Below, piece after piece: positions 20,190 to 36,559 of a stretch of DNA of 36,565 nucleotides (position 1 is its first letter; every line of letters starts with the position of its first letter). Location: NCBI GenBank assembly GCA_011176535.1, contig DUEP01000083.1, positions 1 through 36,565 of the forward strand. The letters are read 5' to 3'. The position numbers and the translations under genes were made by a program. Origin of the DNA: Anaerolineae bacterium. Lineage in GTDB: Bacteria; Chloroflexota; Anaerolineae; Anaerolineales; DRMV01. The notes under the pieces are model-generated. The model made no database searches. It worked only from the letters and a program-made list of their open reading frames with translations, and was not told the DNA's origin.

Positions 20190-20292
20190 TTTTTCCTTCG
20201 GCGCTGAGCGTGCCGTGGTCGTAAAGGGGATGGGTCACCTGCTGCCGATGGCCTTGGCGGCAGGGCACGATTTTCTTCCAGGAGGAGACGCT

Positions 20293-23200
20293 ATGGCTCG
20301 CAAGTCCAAGATGGTGGACAAAAGTCGCTATGGCCTTTTGCCCACGCCGCCTTTGCCCGCTGGTCTGCCCAAGATCGAACTGACGGAGAACGCCCGGGCG
20401 GTGTTCTTCCGCCGCTATGTGCGCAAGGATTTAGACGGGCGTCCCGTTGAAACGCCAGAGGAAACCTTCTGGCGGGTGGCCTATCATGTGGCCAAGGTGG
20501 AGGAGCAATGGGGCAACGATCCTCTGGAAGTGGCCAAAACCTACTACACCAGGTTGCTGGCGCCCAAGCGGTTCTTCCCCAACTCGCCTACCTGGACCGG
20601 GGCGGGGACGCCTTTGGGCCAACTGGCGGCCTGTTTCGTGCTGCCCATCTCGGACGATATGGGGCGCAAGGATTCGGGGATCTTCACCACGCTGCGCAAT
20701 GCGGCGCTGATTCAGCAGACGGGTGGCGGAAACGGCTTCTCCTTCTCGCGGCTGCGGCCCAAGGGGACGGTGGTCAAATCCTCGGCGGGCCAGGCCACCG
20801 GGCCGGTGGGCTTTCTGCGAGTGTACGACAAAGCCTTTGGGGAGATCGCTCAGGGCGGTTCGCGGCGCGGGGCCAACATGGCCGTCTTGCGGGTGGATCA
20901 CCCCGATATTGAGGAGTTCCTCACCTGTAAGACCGATGAGAACGCCATCACCAATTTCAACATTTCCGTCGGCATCACCGACGCCTTCATGCGGGCTGTG
21001 GAAAACGATGAGGAGTGGGAACTGCGCTTCCCCGATGTGACCGACCCCAAGTATGATGACTTTGACGGCACGATTGAGCAGGCCGAGGCCGCGGGCATTC
21101 GCATCAAGACTTACAAGAAAGTGCGCGCCCGCGATTTGTTCCAGAAACTGGTGCGGCAATCTCACCACAACGGCGAGCCGGGTGTGCTCTTCCTGGATAC
21201 GGCCAACCGTGCCAACCCTGTGCCCCATCTATACCCTTTGGAGGCGACCAACCCGTGTTTTGTGGCTGAGACGCGCATTGCGACGACGGAGGGTCTGATC
21301 CCTATTCAGGAGATGGCCGAGTCGGGGAGGCTTTACACCATCGTGACGGACAATCGCGCCCCTTGGGGAGGCAAGGGCCTGGCCGGAGGGCAAACGGGCA
21401 CGACGCTGCGCCCCCAGGTGCGGGCTTTCAAGACCCGTGAGAACGAACCGGTGTTTCGCTTGCGCACGCGACACGGATATACGGTGGTTGCCACGGCGGA
21501 TCATCCTTTCCTTACCCCGGATCGGGGGTATGTGGCGCTGGAAGCCCTGCGCCCGGGCGACCGGGTGCTCCTGCAATCAGGCGAAGGGGCATGGTCGGAA
21601 GAGGAAGCGTTGCCTCCCATGGAGCAGGTGGCCGCCGCGCAGGCCCAGATGGTCCTGGCTGGCGATTGGGCCTCAGGACATCGCGTTCAGCGCCAGGATT
21701 TTGCGGCTCAGTATGCTCACCTGCCTACGCGCTGGTCCAGGGAATTGGGGTTGGTGCTGGGTGTGCTGGTGGGTGATGGATGGCTAAGCCCCAAGAGCCA
21801 TTCGCCGGTGGGGTTCACCTTTAGTGCCCCGGCGCTTCAAGCGCAAGTGCATGGCATTTTGCGTTCCTGGTTTGGCGAAGGGCACATCGCGGATCGTGGC
21901 TCTCTCACGCAGTTGACCTATGGCCGGCTGGCTTATGAGTTTTTCGTAGCCTTGGGCGTGCGCCCGGTGCCTTTAACCGAAAAGCGTGTGCCGGAATCCC
22001 TGTGGCGCGCCCCGCGGGAGGCCGTGATCGGCTTTTTGCAGGGTCTCTTTAGTGCCGACGGTTCGATCCAGGTGAACCTTAGAAAGCAAGATGCCACGGT
22101 GCGGCTGGCCAGTTCCTCCCGCGCGTTGTTGGAGGATGTTCAGTTACTGCTGTTGAACTTTGGGATCGTCTCCCGTATTCATCAGCGTCGGGCCGCTGGA
22201 ACGGCCCGGTTGCCCGATGGGAAGGGCGGGCAGAAGGAATACCCGGTGGCCGAGCAGTATGAATTGCTCATTGGCCGCGAGAATCGCAACCGCTTTGCCA
22301 GAGTGATCGGGTTTGCCGACCCGGCCAAGCAGGCTCGTCTGGAGGCGTTCATCGAGCAACAGGCCCGCGGCCCCTATTGCGAGACGTTTGAGGATGTCAT
22401 TGTCTCCATTGAGCCGGCCGGGCGGGCGGATGTGTATGACCTGGAAGAGCCTGAGACCCACAGCCTGATTGCCAATGGCCTGGTATGTCACAATTGCGGT
22501 GAACAATGGTTAGGGCCTTACGAAAACTGCTGCCTGGGCTCCATCAACCTGGCCCAGCACATCACCCCCGAAGGCGGGGTGGATTGGGACAAACTGCGCG
22601 AGACCACCGAGTTGGCCGTGCGTTTCCTGGACGATGTGGTGGAGGCCAACGCCTATGTACCCTCGGTGCCCCAACTGAAAGAGGCGGCCCATCGCGCCCG
22701 GCGCATCGGGCTGGGCGTCATGGGCCTGGCCGATCTGATGTACGCCAACCGCGTGCGCTACGGCGCGCCTGAGGCGCAGGAGTTCGCCGCCCTGGTGATG
22801 GAATTCATCCGCTACCATGCCATGCGCACCAGCATCGAGTTGGCGAGGGAACGCGGCCCCTTCCCGGCCATCAAGGGCAGCATCTACGACCCCGAGAACC
22901 TCAAATGGCAACCGCCCCGCTGGCCGCAATGGCTGGGCGAGGGCCCCTCGCGCGATTGGGGACGCCCGCCGCTGGATTGGGACGCCATCGTCGAGGGCAT
23001 CCGCCAGCACGGGATTCGCAACGCCGCCCAGACCACCATCGCGCCGACCGGCACCATCGCCACGGTGACCGGGGTGGAAGGCTATGGCTGTGAACCGGTC
23101 TTTGCCCTGGCCTACATCCGCCATGTGAACGACAACGGCAAGGACCTGCAACTCACCTATGTCAGCCCCTCCTTCATGGCGGCCCTCAAAGAGGCTGGGC

Positions 23201-23802
23201 TGAACGAAGAGACCCGGCAGCGGGTCATTGACCAGGTGCTGGAGCAGGGCACCTGCCAGCACATCGAAGAACTGCCCGACTGGATCCGGCACACCTTCGT
23301 CGTCTCCATGGACATCACGGCCGAGGAGCATGTGCGGATGCAGGCGGCGCTGCAGAATTATGTCGATAATTCCATCTCGAAGACGATCAATTTCCCCGCC
23401 GACGCCACCCCCGACGATGTGGCCGAGGCGTACATGCTGGCCTGGAAGTTGGGCTGCAAAGGTCTTACCGTGTATGTCACCGGCTCCCGCGACAAGGTGG
23501 TGCTGGAGACCAAGGCCACGGCGAAGGCCAAAGGCAAGGAGGTGGCCCTGGCCCCCAAGACGGCGGAGGCCACCCTGCAGGCGCCGCCCCCCCCCACGCC
23601 GAGCAACCCCGCCTGTGGAACGAACCTAAGAAGCCGCGCCCTTCGGTGTTGCCAGGCTGGACCTACCGCATCGAAACCCCCCTGGGCCGCGCTTTCGTCA
23701 CCATCAACGAGAACGGTGACGGGCAGCCTTTCGAGGTCTTCGTCAACACTTCCAAGGCCGGCTCCGAGACGGCGGCCATCTCCGAGGCCATCGGCCGGCT
23801 GA
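20293..23802 (+). CDS. nrdJ: B12-dependent ribonucleotide reductase (class II) with intein; frame breaks at C9 tract
   Basis: NrdJ makes deoxyribonucleotides using adenosylcobalamin. Start ATG 20293 has AGGAGGAG upstream. The N-extein (321 residues) has the redox cysteine C114 in LAACFVLPI and ends EATNP. An intein (21256-22494) follows, then the C-extein starts [19 protein letters not shown]. After splicing NPCGE forms with the radical cysteine at residue 322 and E324. The second redox cysteine is in ENCC. The frame is good up to [17 protein letters not shown]; at the C9 run (23587-23595) homology moves to the -1 frame. Read without a shift, the product ends at 23802 with about 70 unrelated residues. 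Confidence 0.93.
21256..22494 (+). other. Intein with LAGLIDADG homing endonuclease in NrdJ
   Basis: The 413-residue insert begins with Cys ([13 protein letters not shown]) and ends NGLVCHN before extein Cys. Splicing block B is TADHPFLT (residues 80-87, T80 and H83). The two dodecapeptide motifs of a LAGLIDADG endonuclease are [14 protein letters not shown] (about 165-177) and [14 protein letters not shown] (about 258-271). Block F/G is [16 protein letters not shown] with the penultimate His and final Asn. All splicing residues are present, so it is likely active in splicing; endonuclease activity is plausible as both acidic Asp positions remain. It interrupts the host exactly before the catalytic radical cysteine. 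Confidence 0.93.
23587..23595 (+). other. C9 homopolymer at the nrdJ frame break
   Basis: Nine C follow CCG CCG-type codons. Upstream the nrdJ frame reads codons starting at 23584, 23587, 23590; downstream homology ([10 protein letters not shown] from 23613) is in the frame starting at 23595. A -1 shift, or one extra C, restores the gene. The run offers C CCC CCC for ribosomal slippage and is also a classic site for sequencing error or transcriptional slippage. Confidence 0.85.
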
Positions 23803-25953: not shown

Positions 25954-27276
25954 TCACGCCTCCAGCAGCCGTTGCACAAAGGGGGGCAGGGTGAAGGCCG
26001 CGCGATGGACGGCGGGGATGTAGTAATGGGTGGAGAGGTCCAAGGCGGCGAAGCGGCTTTCCACCTGGGGCCAGTCCAGGGTCATGGGGTCGAGGCCCTG
26101 GGTAGCCAGGCTGAAACTCCACAGGCCGGCCGGGTAGGTGGGCACATGACCCAGGTAGGCATGCACCTGGGGGAAATGGGCGCGCATGGCCTGTTGGGTG
26201 CGGGTAAGCACCTCCGGCTGCAGCCAAGGGGAGCCGCTTTGAGCGGCGATGACCGCCTCGGGTGCCAGGTTGCGTTGCACCAGGCCGTAGAACTCGGCGG
26301 TGAACAGGCGCATGGCCGGGCCGATGGGATCGGGGATGTCCAGGATGACCACATCGAAAGGCTCGGCAGAGCGTTCCAGGTAGGTGTAGGCGTCCTCGTA
26401 AACTAGGCGGGCGCGGGGGTCGTCGAAGGCGCCCCGGTGGATGGTGGTCAGGTATTCCCGCGCGGCGCGCACCACCTCGCGGTCCAGTTCCACCATGACC
26501 ACCTGCTCAACCGGGTGTTGCAGGATGGTGCGCAACGCGCCGCCGTCGCCGCCGCCGATGAGCAGCACTCGTCCCGGGTGGGGATGGGTGAACAGGGGTA
26601 CATGGACGAGCATTTCGTGGTAGGCCCACTCGTCGGCCTCGCTGGTCTGCACGGTTTCGTCCAGCCAGAGCATCCGGCCAAATTGGAAGGTGTCCACGAT
26701 GTCGATGTGCTGGTAGGGGGAGCGCAGGGAGAACACCGGCCCGCGGACGCGCACGGAGAAGCGGGTGTCGGGCGTCCAGGCTTCGGTGATCCAGTCCTCA
26801 GGTTGTTCCTCCAGTTCGTCGCCCCAGAGCACCGCCGCGGCGATGGCGCAGCCGTTCTTGACCACGGTGTGCTCGGCCGAGGCCACATGGTACTCGTGGA
26901 GTTCCAGGCCGCGCACGGCAAAGGCCTCTTCCACACGCCGACGCACCAGGGCCTCGACCTCGGCGCGGGTGCCAATGAGGTGGCCTTCCATGATCATCCC
27001 GCGCCCGTTGGGGCTGAGGCCCAGGCCCACGGCGGCGGCCACGGTGGTGCCGGGCACATCGCTGCACGATTTCACATACACGGTGGGCACCAGGCTGCCC
27101 ACGGGGAACTCCCGCAAGGGCACCAGCCGCGACCCTTGCGGCACGATGGAGGAGACCTTGATGAGGTTCAAATCGTGAATACCGGCGTCCATCAGGGCGT
27201 TGTCGAAAGCGGTCAGCCCATCCACGCCTTCGGCGTGACCGGAGGTCAGGGAGACATATTTCGGCAGGGTGATCAT
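25954..27276 (-). CDS. Pyruvoyl-dependent arginine decarboxylase fused to aminopropyltransferase
   Basis: The 440-residue protein joins two polyamine enzymes. Residues 1 to about 160 are a pyruvoyl-dependent arginine decarboxylase: LNLIKVSSIVPQG contains the Ser42-Ser43 self-cleavage site that forms the pyruvoyl group, and GMIMEGH holds the catalytic Glu97. Residues about 175-440 are a spermidine synthase-type aminopropyltransferase with SPYQHIDIVD, GGGDGG (241-246), MVELD and the catalytic D313 in ILDIPDPIGPA. Self-cleavage would leave the synthase attached to the alpha chain. The ATG has GAGGT upstream. Expected chemistry: arginine to agmatine, then aminopropyl transfer from decarboxylated SAM, whose SpeD source is not in the window. 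Confidence 0.92.
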   Translation of the reverse strand: MITLPKYVSLTSGHAEGVDGLTAFDNALMDAGIHDLNLIKVSSIVPQGSRLVPLREFPVGSLVPTVYVKSCSDVPGTTVAAAVGLGLSPNGRGMIMEGHLIGTRAEVEALVRRRVEEAFAVRGLELHEYHVASAEHTVVKNGCAIAAAVLWGDELEEQPEDWITEAWTPDTRFSVRVRGPVFSLRSPYQHIDIVDTFQFGRMLWLDETVQTSEADEWAYHEMLVHVPLFTHPHPGRVLLIGGGDGGALRTILQHPVEQVVMVELDREVVRAAREYLTTIHRGAFDDPRARLVYEDAYTYLERSAEPFDVVILDIPDPIGPAMRLFTAEFYGLVQRNLAPEAVIAAQSGSPWLQPEVLTRTQQAMRAHFPQVHAYLGHVPTYPAGLWSFSLATQGLDPMTLDWPQVESRFAALDLSTHYYIPAVHRAAFTLPPFVQRLLEA

Positions 27277-29274: not shown

Positions 29275-30069
29275 TTAGCAAACGCCTTTGTAGGTCCCTC
29301 CGTCCACATTGAGCATCACGCCGGTCAGGTAGGAGGCGGCGGGGGAGAGCAGGAAGACCGCGGCGCGGGCGAACTCCTCCGGCTCGGCCATACGGCCCAG
29401 GGGGCTGGCGGCGCTTTGTTTGGCGATCTCCTCTTCCACCGTGGTGCCGTTTTGCCGGGCGCGATAGGCCATGAGTTCCATCACCCGCTCGGTGCGCGTC
29501 CAGCCGGGGAGGATGGCGTTGAAGCGGATGTTCTCCTGGCCCATCTCCAGCGCCAGGGTTTTGATCAGCCCGATGGTGGCCAGGCGCACGCTGTTGGAGA
29601 GGATGAGGTTGGGGATGGGTTGCTTGACGGTGATGGAGGTGATGGCCAGCACGCTGGCCGCGTCGGACTGCCGCAAGTAGGGCAGGGCGGCGCGGATCAG
29701 GCGCACATGGCTCAGGAAGGAGAGGTCAACGGCTTTCTGCCAGGTGGCTTCGTCGAAATCCTCGAACTGGCCGGCCGGCGGGCCGCCGTTGTTGGTCACC
29801 AGCAGGTCCAGGCCGCCCAGGGCCCTGGCGGCCTGCTGGATGGCCTGCTCCGCCCCCTGGGGGGAGGTGAGATCCTGAGGGACGGGAACCACCACCGCGT
29901 GCGGCAGGGCCTGGCGCAGTCGGGCGGCGGCCTGGTTCAGCCGCTCCGGGTCGCGCCCGTTGATCGCCACCCGGCATCCTTCAGCGGCCAGCACTCGCGC
30001 CACGGCAAACCCCAGCCCCCGGCTAGAAGCGGCCACAAAGGCACGTTTGTCTTTCAGTCCTAAGTCCAT
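29275..30069 (-). CDS. SDR-fold protein, atypical (BKR-like)
   Basis: The 264-residue protein has the short-chain dehydrogenase fold: AASSRGLGFAVARVL replaces the usual TGxxxGIG loop, VTNNGGPPAG (91-100) matches the NNAG region, and it ends in YLTGVMLNVDGGTYKG. The catalytic Ser is probably S145, but the expected Tyr and Lys positions (158 and 162 by spacing) are Ser and Arg in LSNSVRLATIGL. This resembles the known BKR-like SDR subgroup lacking the classical tetrad. Its reaction is unknown. It follows the small protein at 30094-30378 by 24 nt, probably in one operon. Confidence 0.88.
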   Translation of the reverse strand: MDLGLKDKRAFVAASSRGLGFAVARVLAAEGCRVAINGRDPERLNQAAARLRQALPHAVVVPVPQDLTSPQGAEQAIQQAARALGGLDLLVTNNGGPPAGQFEDFDEATWQKAVDLSFLSHVRLIRAALPYLRQSDAASVLAITSITVKQPIPNLILSNSVRLATIGLIKTLALEMGQENIRFNAILPGWTRTERVMELMAYRARQNGTTVEEEIAKQSAASPLGRMAEPEEFARAAVFLLSPAASYLTGVMLNVDGGTYKGVC

Positions 30070-30093: not shown

Positions 30094-30378
30094 TCAACTT
30101 TCGAGATCGGCCACCAGATCGGTCAGATCGCGCTCGCGCAATAGGCGACGCTTCCACACATTGACCACCGGCACGATGTACGGCAGCAGCCGCAGGGAGT
30201 AGTAGGGCGGCAGGATGGGCACGCCCAGCATGTCGCCGTACAGGATGAGGGCAAACAGGTTTTCCAGGTCTGCCCGCTCCCGGCGCAGCGCGCGTTCCAG
30301 TTCATAGAATAACATACCATACAAAAAGCCGCTGACCCATTCGCGGACGGTTTGCCACAGGGTGCGCCACTTTGACAT
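30094..30378 (-). CDS. Small hydrophobic protein, copy A
   Basis: This 94-residue protein is unrecognised but is a clear paralogue of the one at 33651-33929. A basic/aromatic N-terminus (MSKWRTLWQTVREWV) is followed by a helix, then the core GDMLGVPILPPYYSLRLLPY, and the basic C-terminus VWKRRLLRERDLTDL. The core is moderately hydrophobic with a central double proline, suggesting membrane attachment or a re-entrant loop. AAAGGAGG lies 4 nt before the ATG. It precedes the SDR gene, whereas the other copy is with ArsA ATPases. Confidence 0.8.
   Translation of the reverse strand: MSKWRTLWQTVREWVSGFLYGMLFYELERALRRERADLENLFALILYGDMLGVPILPPYYSLRLLPYIVPVVNVWKRRLLRERDLTDLVADLES
30190..30222. repeat. 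33-nt repeat shared with 33735-33767 (copy A)
   Basis: These 33 bases inside small-protein copy A are identical to 33735-33767 in copy B, in the same orientation. They encode the conserved core around LPPYYSLR. Sequence on either side diverges at once. Confidence 0.85.
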
Positions 30379-31076: not shown

Positions 31077-31565
31077 TCAATGGCAGGCCACCTGGGTTGT
31101 GGCCTGACGGAGGGCGGTAAACCCTTCTTCGGGGCACCAGCCGCTGTATTCCAGTTCGATGTAACGGTCGGTGTGCGGGCAGGTCCAGGCGATGGTGAGA
31201 AAGGTCACTGTGTGCCGTCGCAAGGGCAGCCCGCGGCGTTTTTGGTGCACCCGCACGGTGGCGGGGTGCCCGTTGACCTGAAAGGGTTGTGCCCCGTTGG
31301 GGGAACGTTTGGGCGGAGAGGGGGCGATACGGATGGTCAGTTCGGCGGCCCAGCGGTGTGCGGGATGATAGACCACATACCAGGCCCGCGCGGTCACGGC
31401 CCAGCGTTGCCCACCGCGCTCGTGGGTGGCGCTGACTTCCGGCGGGGCCAGGCCCTTTTCCAGTTCCCAGCCTGCGGGCAGCGCCAGCCGCAGCAGGCGG
31501 AGCGAGCCGAACACAAGGTTGCGCAGCCGGATTTCGTGCAGGATGACCTCAATGGGTTCGCTCAT
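31077..31565 (-). CDS. Hypothetical protein downstream of ArsA pair
   Basis: Unrecognised; 162 residues from ATG 31565. It appears beta-rich, with WAVTARAWYVVYHPAHRWAAELTIRI and a basic middle (VRVHQKRRGLPLRRHTVTF). The C-terminal third has three cysteines (TCPHT, SGWCPEEG and the terminal VACH), which could bind metal or form disulfides. No signal peptide or membrane helix is seen. The ribosome-binding site is weak, and a 17-bp hairpin ends 14 nt before the start. It is probably the last gene of the cstA-Trx-ArsA cluster. Confidence 0.75.
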   Translation of the reverse strand: MSEPIEVILHEIRLRNLVFGSLRLLRLALPAGWELEKGLAPPEVSATHERGGQRWAVTARAWYVVYHPAHRWAAELTIRIAPSPPKRSPNGAQPFQVNGHPATVRVHQKRRGLPLRRHTVTFLTIAWTCPHTDRYIELEYSGWCPEEGFTALRQATTQVACH

Positions 31566-31579
31566 GGTGGTTGCCTGCC

Positions 31580-31619
31580 AAGGCACATTGGGCGGCCCCA
31601 CAGCCGCCCAATGTGCCTT
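31580..31619 (-). repeat. 17-bp perfect hairpin between ArsA gene and hypothetical gene
   Basis: AAGGCACATTGGGCGGC at 31580-31596 is the exact complement of 31603-31619, with a 6-nt loop. No T run follows in either direction. It lies just before the start codon of the downstream gene, so it may stabilise the ArsA mRNA 3' end or regulate the next gene. Confidence 0.7.
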
Positions 31620-31644
31620 TGGGGGATGAGGTTGGGGATGTGGT

Positions 31645-32643
31645 TCAGGCGAAGAGTTGCTCGGCCACCCGTTTCAAGATGGGCACGCCACGGACCTCGG
31701 TTTCGTAGAGCGGCAGCACCGCGCGCACCATGGGGCCGAAAAGGCGCTCGATTTCTTCCATGTATTCGGCCTGCATCTTCACCCGGTTCTTGACGAAGGC
31801 GTCGGCGTCCTGTTGGATGGCCTCGGGGTCGATGCGCATGTTGACCACCACCCCGCCGATGGGGATGCCGAACTCGTCGAACCAGTTGATAAAGCGCCGG
31901 ATTACGGCGATGGGCAGGGCCTCGGGCAGGGTGACGAAGAAGAAGGCGGTCAACTCGGGGTCGGTGAGCAGGGTCTTGGCCCGGTCCATGCGTTCCCGGA
32001 AGCTGATCAGGTAGTCCATCAGGGGGTCTTTCTCCTCCTCTTTTTTCGAGAAGGAGAGTTGCAGCCGCATTTTGCGGGCCTCTTCGCGGCTTTGCATCAT
32101 TTTGTTGACCCAGAGGGTATAGACCGAGGACATGCCCAGCAGGCGGCGGGCGTTGGCCGTGGGTGCGGTGTCGAACACATACAGTTCGTACTCGTCGCGG
32201 AACATGATGTCCAGCATATTTTCGAACATGGCCGACTCTTCAAAGGCCGGGTTCATGGTGGCCGTTTCGATGAACTCGTCGGCGCGGCCTTTGATTTCGG
32301 CGTACTTGAGGAACCATTCGATTTTCTCGCGGATTTCCTGCTTGGAGCGCTCGATGGTGTCCTTGGTGTCGATTTCGTAAGCCCACAGGTTGGGCACGCC
32401 CTCGACCGGGGTGGGCTTGCCGAACACATCCTGGTCCAGCAAGCCGGAAAGGCTGTGCACCGGGTTGGTGGAGGCCAGGAGCACCCGCTTGCCCTGTTGG
32501 GCGAAGCCTACGGCCGCCGCACCGGCCAACACGGTCTTGCCCACGCCGCCCTTGCCGCCGAAGAACACATATTTCAGACGCGGCTTGCTGGCGACGAACT
32601 CTTTCATGCTCAAGCGTTCCTGGGTGGTTACGGGCGTGGTCAT
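31645..32643 (-). CDS. ArsA/Get3-family ATPase, copy 2
   Basis: The 332-residue protein is a soluble ArsA/Get3-type P-loop ATPase. It has the deviant Walker A GGKGGVGKT (residues 29-37) with the signature lysine, and an intact switch II start DTAPT (158-162), though the usual GH after it is AN. Switch I, normally DPAHS, reads NPVHS, so the expected Asp is Asn60. No arsenite-binding cysteine cluster is seen. ATG 32643 overlaps the stop of copy 1 by 4 nt and has GGAGGA upstream. Role: nucleotide-driven targeting or chaperone function by family analogy, not arsenic export. Confidence 0.9.
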   Translation of the reverse strand: MTTPVTTQERLSMKEFVASKPRLKYVFFGGKGGVGKTVLAGAAAVGFAQQGKRVLLASTNPVHSLSGLLDQDVFGKPTPVEGVPNLWAYEIDTKDTIERSKQEIREKIEWFLKYAEIKGRADEFIETATMNPAFEESAMFENMLDIMFRDEYELYVFDTAPTANARRLLGMSSVYTLWVNKMMQSREEARKMRLQLSFSKKEEEKDPLMDYLISFRERMDRAKTLLTDPELTAFFFVTLPEALPIAVIRRFINWFDEFGIPIGGVVVNMRIDPEAIQQDADAFVKNRVKMQAEYMEEIERLFGPMVRAVLPLYETEVRGVPILKRVAEQLFA

Positions 32644-33626
32644 AGCGTTTCTCCTCCGAACATGGCTTCGGCCATGCGCGCGATCATGTCCAGGCCGGCG
32701 ATGTCGCGCTCCATCTCCGGGATCTCGGCCAGCACCTGTTCCCCGAATTGCTCGCGGATTTTCGCCAGGTACTTTTGCTGCATTTCGTAGCGGTTGCGCA
32801 GATAGGCCGGCGCGCGCTCCGACAGGGCCACCTCTTTCGGGATCACGCGGTTGACGATGTACCCGCTGATGGGGACATCGTATTTGGCAAAGAGTTTCGC
32901 CGCCTTTTCGGTGTCGATGAGGATCATCTCCTCGGGCACCAGGACGAAGAAGAAAGCCGTCTTCTCCCGGTCGGTGAGGATGCCGGACGAGGTGGAGATG
33001 CGGTAGCGGATGTCCTGCAACTCGGCCAGGATCTGGTCCTCGGGCAGTTCGCTCTTGTGCTGGATGCGGGCGGCCATTTGCTCGTACTCGCGCATCTCCT
33101 CCCGCAGTTTGGTGATTTTGCTGATCCACTGGTCATACACGCTGGACATGCTCAGGTAGTACAGCGCATGCCCCAGGGGCACCAGATCGTAAATGTAGTA
33201 GTCGTAGCCCCCCTGGACGATGATGTCTACCACCTGGTCGAAGATGGCCGATTCTTCCATGGCGGGTTCGGCCGAGGCGGCCTGGATGTAATCCTCGATT
33301 TCCTGGGGGATCTTGTCAAAGCCGTACATATCTCGGATTTTCTGCCGGATCTCTTCCTGATAAGCCCGGATGTGCTCATCGGCGTCGATTTCCTGGGCGT
33401 ACAGGTTGGGCATGATTTCCACGGCACCCTTGCCGTAGATGTCGCGTTGGAAGATGTCGGAAAGGGAGGCCTGTGGGTCTACCGAGAAGACCAGGACCCT
33501 TTTGCCTTGTTGGGCCAGCCAGTAAGCCGTGGCGGCGGAGAAGGTGGTCTTCCCCAGGCCGCCCTTGCCGCCAAACATGATGTAGCGGCGCTCGGGATGC
33601 TCGCGGAACACACGGGCTAAAGACAT
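32640..33626 (-). CDS. ArsA/Get3-family ATPase, copy 1
   Basis: The 328-residue protein has the deviant Walker A GGKGGLGKTT (19-28) and switch I DPQAS (50-54) with Asp50 kept. Switch II is altered to DLVPLGH (147-153), whereas the family has DTAPTGH. This is the reverse of copy 2, which keeps DTAPT but loses the switch I Asp. A helical insert follows (about 155-200, EEMREYEQMAARIQ). The genes overlap by 4 nt and are probably made as a pair. ATG 33626 has GAGGTG upstream; it follows the small protein by 24 nt. Confidence 0.9.
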   Translation of the reverse strand: MSLARVFREHPERRYIMFGGKGGLGKTTFSAATAYWLAQQGKRVLVFSVDPQASLSDIFQRDIYGKGAVEIMPNLYAQEIDADEHIRAYQEEIRQKIRDMYGFDKIPQEIEDYIQAASAEPAMEESAIFDQVVDIIVQGGYDYYIYDLVPLGHALYYLSMSSVYDQWISKITKLREEMREYEQMAARIQHKSELPEDQILAELQDIRYRISTSSGILTDREKTAFFFVLVPEEMILIDTEKAAKLFAKYDVPISGYIVNRVIPKEVALSERAPAYLRNRYEMQQKYLAKIREQFGEQVLAEIPEMERDIAGLDMIARMAEAMFGGETL

Positions 33627-33650
33627 CGTGTCACCTCACGAAAGGGGGAT

Positions 33651-33929
33651 TTAGGCCAGGGCGTCGGTCAGGTCTTTTTCGCGCAACATGCGGCGTCGCC
33701 AGGTGCTAATCTGCGGCACCACATAGGGGAGCAACCGCAGGGAGTAGTAGGGCGGCAGGATGGGCACTCCTAACAGGTCGCCCATGGTGATGAGGATGAA
33801 CAGATGCTCCATGCTGCCGCGGGTCTTGAGCGCCTGGCGGGCCATTTCATGGGAGGCCATGCCGTAGATGAAATCCAACACCGCGGCTTTGGTCTTTTGC
33901 CAGAAGGACCGTTTTTCTTGTTCACTCAT
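33651..33929 (-). CDS. Small hydrophobic protein, copy B
   Basis: A 92-residue paralogue of the protein at 30094-30378. A charged N-terminal helix (SEQEKRSFWQKTKAAVLDF) leads to EHLFILITMGDLLGVPILPP, then YYSLRLLPYVVP and a basic end TWRRRMLREKDLTDALA. Over the 23-residue core it differs from copy A at two positions only. AGGAGT lies 7 nt before the ATG, inside the end of the upstream gene. Placed directly before two Get3-like ATPases, it could be their client or membrane partner; that is inference. Confidence 0.82.
   Translation of the reverse strand: MSEQEKRSFWQKTKAAVLDFIYGMASHEMARQALKTRGSMEHLFILITMGDLLGVPILPPYYSLRLLPYVVPQISTWRRRMLREKDLTDALA
33735..33767. repeat. 33-nt repeat shared with 30190-30222 (copy B)
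   Basis: Identical over 33 bases to the segment in small-protein copy A, same orientation, coding for the conserved core. The flanks differ immediately. Confidence 0.85.
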
Positions 33930-33934
33930 GGTGG

Positions 33935-34327
33935 CTACTCCTGAGAAAGGTTGGGGGATTCGCCGGCCAGGTAGGCGGCGATGAAGTCCCGCAGGGCGGG
34001 GAGGTTGAGGTGGGCCAGGGTGAACTGGCGTCCATCGGGCAAGAGCAGGCTGGGGATGCGCCGCACTTTGTGACGCCAGCAAAACCAAAGCCCATAGAGG
34101 CTCCAGGGGTTGACCCAGCGCACCCGCAGCCGTCCGGGGAAGCGATGGTGCAGGTAGGCCAGCGCGCGTCGCACGGCGTAGGCGACTTCCTGTTGGGCGG
34201 TCACTTCGTCTTTCAGGCGGGCCTGGGTGAGAAAATCTTCGGCCACAACGGCCCCGCTGGGAGCCAGGGGGAAGATATCGGTTCCGGGTGCAGCGATCAC
34301 CCATAAATCCAGGATGGGGATGGCCAA
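33935..34327 (-). CDS. Thioredoxin-fold-like protein without CxxC
   Basis: From TTG 34327 the product is 130 residues. Start choice: GAGGTG lies 6 nt upstream and the gene begins 4 nt after the previous stop; GTG 34300 is an alternative. It resembles the upstream protein in the stretch SLYGLWFCWRHKVRRIPSL, where IPS is placed like the thioredoxin cis-proline, followed by a strand and a C-terminal helix. No CxxC is present, so it is probably not a disulfide reductase. The relation to thioredoxin is a pattern judgement; a search could overturn it. Confidence 0.65.
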   Translation of the reverse strand: MAIPILDLWVIAAPGTDIFPLAPSGAVVAEDFLTQARLKDEVTAQQEVAYAVRRALAYLHHRFPGRLRVRWVNPWSLYGLWFCWRHKVRRIPSLLLPDGRQFTLAHLNLPALRDFIAAYLAGESPNLSQE

Positions 34328-34331
34328 GGGG

Positions 34332-34706
34332 TCACCTCACAGGGTCCGTTTTTTCCAGCCAGCGCTGGATGCACTGAGTGATACGCTCTTCGTCCCAGGT
34401 GCTCAGCCGCTCCTCACCGCCCACGATGAAGGTGGGGTAGCGCCGCACGCCGCAGATGGCCCACCACAGCCCCCGCAGGGATTGGGCATCGGTCAGGGGG
34501 ATGACGATGCGTCCGGCAAAGCGTTGGGCGGGGTGCTCCACCAGTTCGGAAAGCCGCTCCCATTCCTTCTGCCACTCCGGGGGATAGGCCTGTAGGTTTT
34601 CGCGATGCACCTGAGTGCCCACGCCAGCCTCGTCCAGGAAGACCTGGCAGTGGGCGCAGTGCATCATGCTGCTGATGGTGTGGGCGACGATTTCGACTTG
34701 AAGCAT
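34332..34706 (-). CDS. Thioredoxin-like protein with CxxC
   Basis: The 124-residue protein starts LQVEIVAHTISSMMHCAHC; C17 and C20 form a CAHC redox or metal motif after the first strand, as in thioredoxin-fold proteins. Later VRRYPTFIVGGEE fits the cis-proline loop and following strand, then a C-terminal helix (DEERITQCIQRWL). No signal peptide is seen, so it should be cytoplasmic. No clear ribosome-binding site precedes ATG 34706. It heads the Trx-like/small protein/ArsA unit, 83 bp after cstA. Confidence 0.75.
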   Translation of the reverse strand: MLQVEIVAHTISSMMHCAHCQVFLDEAGVGTQVHRENLQAYPPEWQKEWERLSELVEHPAQRFAGRIVIPLTDAQSLRGLWWAICGVRRYPTFIVGGEERLSTWDEERITQCIQRWLEKTDPVR

Positions 34707-34789: not shown

Positions 34790-36559
34790 TCAATCGCCCG
34801 TGGTGGCCAGCTGCCCGGCCTTGGCTTTGTTGAAGGCCTTGAGGCCGTCCAGCAGGAGCATCAGGGCCGCGATGACCATGTAGAGGCCAAAGGCGGCCGA
34901 GATCAGGTTGCCGATGATGAAGCCGGTGTTGCCTTGACCCCAACTCTGGACCACGCCCTTCCAGAGGGCGTTGTACACCGTCACATAGAGCAGGGCGGCC
35001 AGGGTGGTGATGTACATGAAGATGCCGGGGATGAAGGTCCAGTTGTAGGCCCGGCCTTCACTGGCCAGCCAGATGGAGAGCAACAGCAGGGCGATGCCGG
35101 CGAACACCTGGTTGGAGCCGCCGAACAGCACCCAGATCCACTGCCAGAACCCGAAGACGATGATGAACAGGGTGAGCAATTCGGCCACGATGGTGCCGAA
35201 GTGTGGGTTCTTGAAGGCGGGGATGCGGTCGCCCAGCAACTCGGCGCTGGCCACGCGCATGAAGCGCAGCACCAGTTGCATCACGGTCAGGGCCATGACC
35301 ACCAGGAAGACGATGCCGATGGCCGACCCCAGGTCCACCGGGAAGCCGATGACATTCATGAAGTGGGCCATGCCGTAGACGAACACGCCGCCAGCCCCCT
35401 TGACCAGTTTGTAGCCCTGGGCCGGGTCGTAGAACTTGCCGCTCAGGGCGAAGGTGGCGGCGAAGATGGTGGAGAGGGTGGCCAGCACGCCTTCCATAAA
35501 CATCGCGCCACCGCCCACAGGCAGAGCGTCGGTCTCCTTCTCCAACTGGCGGGCCGTACCGGAGGTGGAGACCAGCGAGTGCCAGCCGGAGATGGCCCCG
35601 CAGGCGATGGTGACGAAGAGGATGGGCCAGATGGGGCCTAAGTGGGGCTGCCAGGCGGTGATCCAGGCCGGGATCTCAAAGGAGGTGTTCACGCTGCCGG
35701 TGAAGGCGGCTACCACGATGCCCAGCATGGAGCCCACCAGGCCCAACAGCACGAACCAGAAGGAGGTGTAGTTCACCGGCTGGGCGAATTGCCAGATGGG
35801 CAACACCGAGCCCAGGTAGCAGAAGACCAACATCACGATGGCCCAGAAGAAGTTGGCCCAACTCATGTCGCCGTAGCCCAGGGGGCGGTGGATGAAGGGA
35901 TCGGGCCCCAGACCGTTGATCCACTTGACGAAGTTCTGGGCTGGGGCCGTAGTGCCGAACCAGATGCCCGCCAGGGCCAGCAGCACGGTCACCACCGTGG
36001 TGACCATGAGGTCCACCTTCCAGCGGTAGGTCATCTGGCCGGCCAGGACCCCGGCGATGACCAGGATGATGAACCCGACCGGCGCGATGGGTTTGGCCAG
36101 GATGGGAGCGATGAGGGCACCGAACGCGCCCATGATGAGCAGCAGGTAGATGTACAGGAACGAGAGCAGCAGGCCGCGGGCCCGTGGCGAGATGAAGCGG
36201 TACGATAGCCCACCCATGGTCATACCGTCGTTCCGCATGGCCAGCATCGCCGAGCCGTAGTCCTGGACCCACCCGATGAACAGCACGCCCAGGAAGATCC
36301 AGATGATGGCCGGCAGCCAGCCGTATTGCACGGCGACGATGGGGCCCACGATGGGACCTAAGGCGGCGATGGACTTGAACTGGTAGCCGAACAGCACGCT
36401 GGCGCTGGCCGGCATGAAGTCCACGCCGTCGTTGTAAAGCGTGGCCGGGGTGGCCCGTTTGGGATCGGCTTGAATGATCTCGCGATCCACCTTCTTCGAA
36501 TAGATCTGATAACCACCGATCACCAAGACAATGGAGACAATGAGCATTACAAGTGCCAT
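34790..36559 (-). CDS. cstA: Carbon starvation protein CstA family transporter
   Basis: CstA-type proteins are inner-membrane transporters for peptides or pyruvate. The 589-residue protein has many hydrophobic segments, beginning LVMLIVSIVLVIGGYQIY. It carries family signatures NDGVDFMPASASVLFGYQF, AALGPIVGPIVAVQYGWLP and WVQDYGSAMLAMRNDGMTMG, and later ACGAISGWHSLVSTSGTARQ. Length is in the shorter range for the family (E. coli about 700). ATG 36559 fits the N-terminal helix, but only 6 bases upstream are in the window, so the promoter and any neighbour are unseen. The minus-strand cluster below may be transcribed with it. Confidence 0.93.
   Translation of the reverse strand: MALVMLIVSIVLVIGGYQIYSKKVDREIIQADPKRATPATLYNDGVDFMPASASVLFGYQFKSIAALGPIVGPIVAVQYGWLPAIIWIFLGVLFIGWVQDYGSAMLAMRNDGMTMGGLSYRFISPRARGLLLSFLYIYLLLIMGAFGALIAPILAKPIAPVGFIILVIAGVLAGQMTYRWKVDLMVTTVVTVLLALAGIWFGTTAPAQNFVKWINGLGPDPFIHRPLGYGDMSWANFFWAIVMLVFCYLGSVLPIWQFAQPVNYTSFWFVLLGLVGSMLGIVVAAFTGSVNTSFEIPAWITAWQPHLGPIWPILFVTIACGAISGWHSLVSTSGTARQLEKETDALPVGGGAMFMEGVLATLSTIFAATFALSGKFYDPAQGYKLVKGAGGVFVYGMAHFMNVIGFPVDLGSAIGIVFLVVMALTVMQLVLRFMRVASAELLGDRIPAFKNPHFGTIVAELLTLFIIVFGFWQWIWVLFGGSNQVFAGIALLLLSIWLASEGRAYNWTFIPGIFMYITTLAALLYVTVYNALWKGVVQSWGQGNTGFIIGNLISAAFGLYMVIAALMLLLDGLKAFNKAKAGQLATTGD

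Follow-up and report, generated by a model that had tools for sequence, protein, structure and literature searches.

What do two ArsA/Get3-like ATPases do when they are encoded side by side with a small hydrophobic protein and thioredoxin-like proteins, and without arsenic genes? We address this question for an Anaerolineae bacterium (Chloroflexota; GenBank assembly GCA_011176535.1), whose contig DUEP01000083.1 was analyzed over its full 36,565 nucleotides and is referred to below as the window. An earlier note on this DNA had interpreted six minus-strand genes as a candidate undescribed membrane-protein handling system. All six open reading frames are present, at positions 31,077 to 34,706; they are transcribed in the order TrxA, TrxB, CoryA, ArsA1, ArsA2, UnkC, with gaps of 4, 5, 24 and -4 nt inside the first five. 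We found that these genes belong to a conserved system tied to CstA, a carbon-starvation family transporter of the pyruvate/peptide type, and that one of the two ATPases carries a fixed asparagine in switch I. The reading we favor – that the ATPases form a heterodimer that docks on CstA through a CstX-type protein and gates or powers transport – has, in our judgment, about an even chance of being right.

Co-conservation of the ATPase pair with CstA

We scanned 84,980 species genomes with an alignment of the small protein; of the 413 relatives obtained, the 80 best loci were retained. These loci come from Chloroflexota, Thermodesulfobacteriota, Methylomirabilota and metagenome-assembled genomes (MAGs) labelled Myxococcota and Planctomycetota – labels that we took as given. 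ArsA1 was identified at 79 loci, ArsA2 at 73, CstA at 62 and two or more Cory copies at no fewer than 53. A protein matching the TrxA profile was present at 42 (a count that includes TrxB matches), a CstY-like protein at 36 and UnkC at 17. All per-locus counts are lower bounds, many of the contigs being short.

Wherever the contig was long enough, CoryA was followed by ArsA1 and then by ArsA2. Because the same order recurs in essentially every such locus across several phyla, the arrangement is not chance. The neighborhood comparison thus upholds the earlier claim that the genes form a system: they are co-conserved in other genomes. Three parts of the unit are additional to that claim, namely CstA, a second small protein (CoryB) and a CstY-like protein. 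CstA lies upstream of the module in most loci, usually adjoining it; in the window it is 83 nt upstream of the six-gene cassette, with its start 6 nt from the contig end.

CstA presence tracks the module almost perfectly, and in Chloroflexota the link is near all-or-nothing. In the order to which the bacterium belongs, 34 of 151 genomes encode ArsA1 together with Cory; the single genome with Cory and no ArsA1 (G035) has a divergent type of Cory. Both ArsA1 and CstA were encoded by 33 of these genomes, ArsA1 only by 1, CstA only by 2 and neither by 115 (Fisher p 9e-30). In one CstA-only exception (G150), CstA adjoins TrxA and is cut off by the end of the contig, and the module may merely be missing from the assembly. 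Across the phylum (301 genomes), Cory and CstA were found together in 34, Cory only in 3, CstA only in 4 and neither in 260 (Fisher p 6e-37); in G231 and G306, both of which have CstA only, no module gene lies near it. CstA is more widespread than Cory in Thermodesulfobacteriota, where it was present in 73 of 148 genomes, including 19 of the 20 that encode Cory (p 5e-6). Several genomes carry the module on a contig that lacks CstA and CstA on another contig, so the link holds without adjacency.

Other recurrent neighbors at these loci (L059-L138; for example, L128 11145-12008 and L093 4099-5217) are a membrane protein with tetratricopeptide (TPR)-like repeats, seen at 21 loci, and a ketopantoate-reductase-like protein, seen at 11, which fits alpha-keto acid metabolism.

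An asymmetric ATPase pair

Both ATPases have an intact P-loop. They differ in switch I, where ArsA1 has an aspartate (SVDPQAS) in 81 of 81 sequences and ArsA2 an asparagine (STNPVHS) in 77 of 77; in Get3, by comparison, both protomers carry the switch-I aspartate. Hallmark residues are invariant in ArsA1, which has DLVPLGH where DTAPTGH is expected, and ArsA2 has a DTAPTAN motif. In a tree the two proteins form distinct, well-supported clades; because each clade spans the sampled phyla, the duplication is old. The single ArsA of other CstA operons keeps the aspartate, both in Cytobacillus, where the STDP and DTAPTGH motifs are intact, and in four Thermodesulfobacteriota genomes.

In Get3, D57 is essential for hydrolysis, and the D57N form binds ATP and does not hydrolyze it (PMC12506534). 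Because the asparagine of ArsA2 sits at the equivalent position, this protein has probably lost hydrolysis. Castillo and Saier observed that single-domain homologues can have N in place of the D of the SXD motif, and drew no conclusion about hydrolysis from it (PMC2963123).

The family name of these ATPases (PF02374) and the annotation ‘arsenical pump-driving ATPase’ would suggest an arsenite or metalloid efflux system. We rejected this explanation, which we consider very improbable. Neither window ATPase contains a cysteine, nor do most homologues, so that both the metalloid-binding cysteines and the zinc CxxC of Get3 are absent. The cassette lacks ArsB, Acr3 and ArsR, no match to ArsB, ArsC or ArsR was found among the 20 window open reading frames scanned, and the associated transporter is CstA. 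Castillo and Saier, moreover, found no arsenic genes in carbon-starvation operons (PMC2963123). The earlier note had also argued against an arsenite pump and had called the ATPases Get3-like, which agrees with their nearest solved structures, archaeal Get3 (3UG6 and 3ZQ6).

Small and accessory proteins of the locus

Within the set, conservation is highest for CoryA. Its relatives in the 80 loci are 74-89% identical to it, with a median of 79% in Chloroflexota and 78% in other phyla; the corresponding medians are 76 and 71% for ArsA1 and 74 and 67% for ArsA2, and CstA is at about 50%. This high conservation, together with the many positions at which a Gly, Pro, Asp, Arg or Trp never varies, suggests that CoryA is a dedicated subunit. 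Its one hydrophobic stretch, of about 19-30 residues (Kyte-Doolittle 1.59), includes an invariant Asp. Structure prediction gave a helical model of low confidence (predicted template modelling score, pTM, 0.43), and no relative was found in the PDB by sequence. CoryB is 55% identical to CoryA.

These features bear on the main alternative to coupling – Get3-like biogenesis, in which the ArsA pair would capture the small protein or proteins, or part of CstA, and deliver them to the membrane, acting as a CstA assembly factor and not as a motor. The best sequence matches to archaeal Get3 speak for it, as do the hydrophobic stretch of CoryA and the fact that the gene before ArsA1 is always CoryA. 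ArsA2 could then be a permanent client holder, since the Asp-to-Asn form of TRC40 (D74N) is a client trap that binds clients constitutively (PMC6633398). However, hydrophobicity is usually what marks tail-anchor clients, whereas in CoryA the sequence is constrained over the whole length; its hydrophobic stretch is also short and includes the invariant Asp. The missing zinc CxxC, with no cysteine in most copies, also argues against biogenesis, and serving one transporter alone would make the client range unusually narrow. On balance we regard this alternative as unlikely, though well worth weighing. The earlier note had cast the small protein as a client or receptor: the strong sequence constraint disfavors a generic tail-anchored hydrophobic client, while Get3-like handling of the small protein or of CstA may still apply.

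Both Cory proteins match the cory-CC-star family NF041419 (CoryA, E 1.4e-8, 34.6 bits; CoryB, E 5.5e-10, 39.1 bits), as do 54 of 54 aligned relatives, all with scores below the 80-bit equivalog cut-off; they are thus homologous to the family and outside the equivalog. The C-terminal Cys-Cys – a criterion that we inferred from the family name and the Cytobacillus protein – is absent from the window copies, which end in DALA and DLES and have no cysteine; only the Cytobacillus protein ends in IRCC. In Cytobacillus spongiae (NZ_CP089998) the gene order is CstA, a 95-amino-acid (aa) hypothetical protein, cory-CC-star and ArsA, and CoryA aligns with this cory-CC-star over the conserved core (hhalign probability 96.3). 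Because the Cytobacillus homologue has the position and size given for CstX by Castillo and Saier (PMC2963123), we take Cory to be their CstX. A plasmid search with CoryB returned no matches; one with ArsA1 returned Cytobacillus and Halocatena, where the ArsA has no adjoining CstA. Haloferax volcanii also carries an NF041419 match.

We considered and rejected YbdD (PF04328) as the small partner in these lineages. The family occurs in 1 of the 151 order relatives and in 0 of the 148 Thermodesulfobacteriota genomes; it is absent from genome G000, and the small proteins of the window have no Pfam match. Because Thermodesulfobacteriota genomes that have only CstA lack YbdD too, Cory is not simply a YbdD replacement.

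Two further kinds of Cory-like protein were found away from ArsA and CstA. A third, divergent family ends in H-[LI]-G-H (L039 7752-8033, on contig 9 of G000, 47.8 kb; L058 6058-6366); its C-terminal His pair suggests metal binding, and in G035 the gene lies near a Sco1-like gene and a heavy-metal P-type ATPase. A CoryA-like protein in G590 (L218 5353-5655), with no ArsA or CstA nearby, follows a FeoB-like GTPase and precedes an ATP-binding cassette (ABC) metal-transporter pair; possibly the small protein has been re-used there with another transporter.

Turning to the thiol proteins, the TrxA model has a thioredoxin-like fold (mean predicted local distance difference test score, pLDDT, 79; pTM 0.70; residues 14-33 of low confidence). 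With its CxxC and P91 at the cis-Pro position it has the features of a thioredoxin, and C17, C20 and P91 are invariant in 31 homologues. The best Foldseek matches of the model are thioredoxins (probability 1.00), with an E value of only 2.5e-3 and a template modelling (TM) score of about 0.5. UnkC, which has an alternative GTG start at 31601, adjoins TrxA and CstA in two Thermodesulfobacteriota loci (L083 and L097). Its C129, C161 and H162 do not vary among 15 aligned homologues, which come from Chloroflexota and Thermodesulfobacteriota, and 14 of 17 matches in a wider profile search end in CH. The 214-aa protein is homologous to a protein of ~200 aa encoded after ArsA in Thermodesulfobacteriota CstA operons (hhalign probability 95.5, E 1.6e-8); in size, topology and position it fits the description of CstY, and we name it accordingly as CstY-like (PMC2963123).

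The accessory proteins open a second alternative to coupling. The asymmetric pair could be a regulatory switch that senses ATP/ADP or, via TrxA and UnkC, redox state, and opens or closes CstA in starvation without driving it. The invariant CxxC of TrxA and terminal Cys-His of UnkC would suit such a role, as would the tie to a starvation-type transporter and the probable loss of hydrolysis at one site; hydrolysis-dead sites are also seen in gating-type NTPases. Nevertheless, the occurrence of TrxA at 42 and UnkC at 17 of the 80 loci implies that redox control is not universal, and no sensor domain was found. We consider a switch of this kind improbable.

Table 1. Module genes and adjoining neighbor in the window.
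Feature	Coordinates	Strand	Description
CstA, carbon-starvation family transporter	34790..36559	-	589 aa; PF02554 E 5e-111
TrxA, thioredoxin-like with C17-x-x-C20 (CAHC)	34332..34706	-	124 aa
TrxB, TrxA paralogue without CxxC	33935..34327	-	130 aa, TTG start; TrxA profile match E 8.5e-13
CoryA, CstX-type small protein	33651..33929	-	92 aa; directly upstream of ArsA1
ArsA1, Get3/ArsA-like ATPase	32640..33626	-	328 aa; PF02374 E 5e-74
ArsA2, Get3/ArsA-like ATPase	31645..32643	-	332 aa; PF02374 E 4e-68
UnkC, protein with invariant Cys and C-terminal Cys-His	31077..31565	-	162 aa, ATG start
CstY-like protein, one N-terminal transmembrane helix	30416..31060	+	214 aa; between CoryB and cassette
CoryB, second CstX-type paralogue	30094..30378	-	94 aa
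Short-chain dehydrogenase/reductase (SDR)-family oxidoreductase, peripheral neighbor	29275..30069	-	PF13561 E 6e-51; adjoins module in 15 of 80 loci

Elsewhere in the window, positions 20215-23802 encode a class II-type ribonucleotide reductase split by an intein that carries a LAGLIDADG endonuclease domain. A single open reading frame at 25954-27276 encodes a pyruvoyl-dependent arginine decarboxylase domain and, after it, a spermidine synthase domain; two polyamine steps appear to be fused here.

A proposed mechanism and its precedents

For the favored coupling of the ATPases to CstA, we propose the following mechanism. ArsA1 and ArsA2 would form a heterodimer sandwiching ATP, with a hydrolysis-competent ArsA1 site and an ArsA2 site that probably binds ATP and does not hydrolyze it. 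CoryA and CoryB would dock this pair on the cytoplasmic face of CstA, where ATP binding and hydrolysis would gate or energize the import of pyruvate or of a small organic acid like it. The thioredoxin-like and Cys-His-tailed proteins would play an accessory part and may adjust the complex through thiol redox state. The fixed asymmetric pair, which resembles the halves of ArsA, the constrained small subunit and the near-obligate occurrence with one transporter all point to coupling. That ArsA energizes CstA through CstX was proposed earlier from independent data (PMC2963123), and E. coli CstA carries pyruvate and needs the small partner YbdD (PMC5847655).

Several points weigh against coupling. 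The Fisher p values treat genomes as independent and ignore shared ancestry; the occurrence of the link in many families and phyla carries more weight. Four of 24 module-bearing genomes examined gave no CstA match (MAGs, completeness unstated), and G590 encodes a Cory protein and has no CstA match either. E. coli CstA and BtsT function without any ArsA, so the ATPase is not required for CstA-type transport as such. The ATPases are closer to archaeal Get3 than to arsenite ArsA, which fits a targeting role, and the CoryA model is of low confidence. The choice between coupling and Get3-like biogenesis cannot be made from sequence alone. A bolder form of coupling would make CstA here an ATP-driven importer: a secondary carrier turned into a primary pump by a Get3-derived, CstX-coupled heterodimer in which one site is active and the other is a natural ‘trap’. 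We put this form forward tentatively, as doubtful but conceivable.

The general kind of system was predicted in 2010. Castillo and Saier described CstA-CstX-ArsA(-CstY) operons, and in their proposal CstA is energized by ArsA homologues (PMC2963123), so the term ‘undescribed’ does not hold; the thought that the small and thioredoxin-like proteins might map to a known pathway proved right in part, as the module maps to a carbon-starvation transporter. Their operons have a CstA homologue, a CstX of ~90 aa, a single-domain ArsA of ~330 aa, a CstY of ~210 aa, sometimes two CstX paralogues, and no ars genes. The module presented here likewise has CstA in the cluster, a ~90-aa CstX beside ArsA, and single-domain ~330-aa ArsA proteins without ars genes. 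Adjacent ArsA pairs also appear in that study (cluster 15; Symbiobacterium and Pyrobaculum). In contrast to our set, Chloroflexota, Methylomirabilota and sulfate reducers are not represented in its CstA-linked clusters, an asymmetric pair in which Asn is fixed in one half is not discussed, and thioredoxin-like and Cys-His-tailed proteins are not reported in the CstA operons. In the literature searched beyond this paper we found no mention of CstX together with CstA, and we found no demonstration of ArsA energizing CstA transport. As far as we found, the two-ATPase version with a fixed Asn half is unreported; this version, its spread over Chloroflexota and other phyla, the quantified CstA link and the thiol accessory proteins are new.

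Comparison with other systems places the module between several known types. The Cytobacillus spongiae cluster shares CstA, a CoryA-homologous small protein and ArsA, but has one ArsA and a small protein ending in CC. E. coli CstA-YbdD is alike in being a CstA-family transporter that needs a small adjacent partner, yet YbdD belongs to a different family (PF04328) and no ATPase is involved. With Get3/TRC40 (archaeal 3UG6 and 3ZQ6, yeast Get3) the pair shares the fold family, the P-loop and the switch-I Asp of ArsA1; it differs in being two diverged genes and not a homodimer, in the absent zinc CxxC, in the Asn of ArsA2 and in its tie to one transporter. The bacterial arsenite-pump ArsA also has two non-equivalent nucleotide-binding halves that work with a membrane carrier, whereas here the halves are separate genes, the arsenite cysteines are missing and the carrier is CstA instead of ArsB. 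Mycobacterial BagA/BagB (Rv3679-Rv3680) are a bacterial Get3-like ATPase pair as well, though the similarity is only distant.

ArsA/Get3 ATPases are known as motors of arsenite pumps and as couriers of membrane proteins, and a pair tied almost one-to-one to CstA lets one test cleanly which of these roles is general. A direct test is possible because one half carries the Asp-to-Asn change naturally, and the same mutation is the standard trap in Get3 work. If the module is an ATP-driven importer, it would join ArsA-ArsB as the second example of a carrier driven by a soluble ATPase of this fold, and its asymmetric cycle would be fixed across phyla. Such a system would also explain the role of the unstudied ‘cory-CC-star’ proteins.

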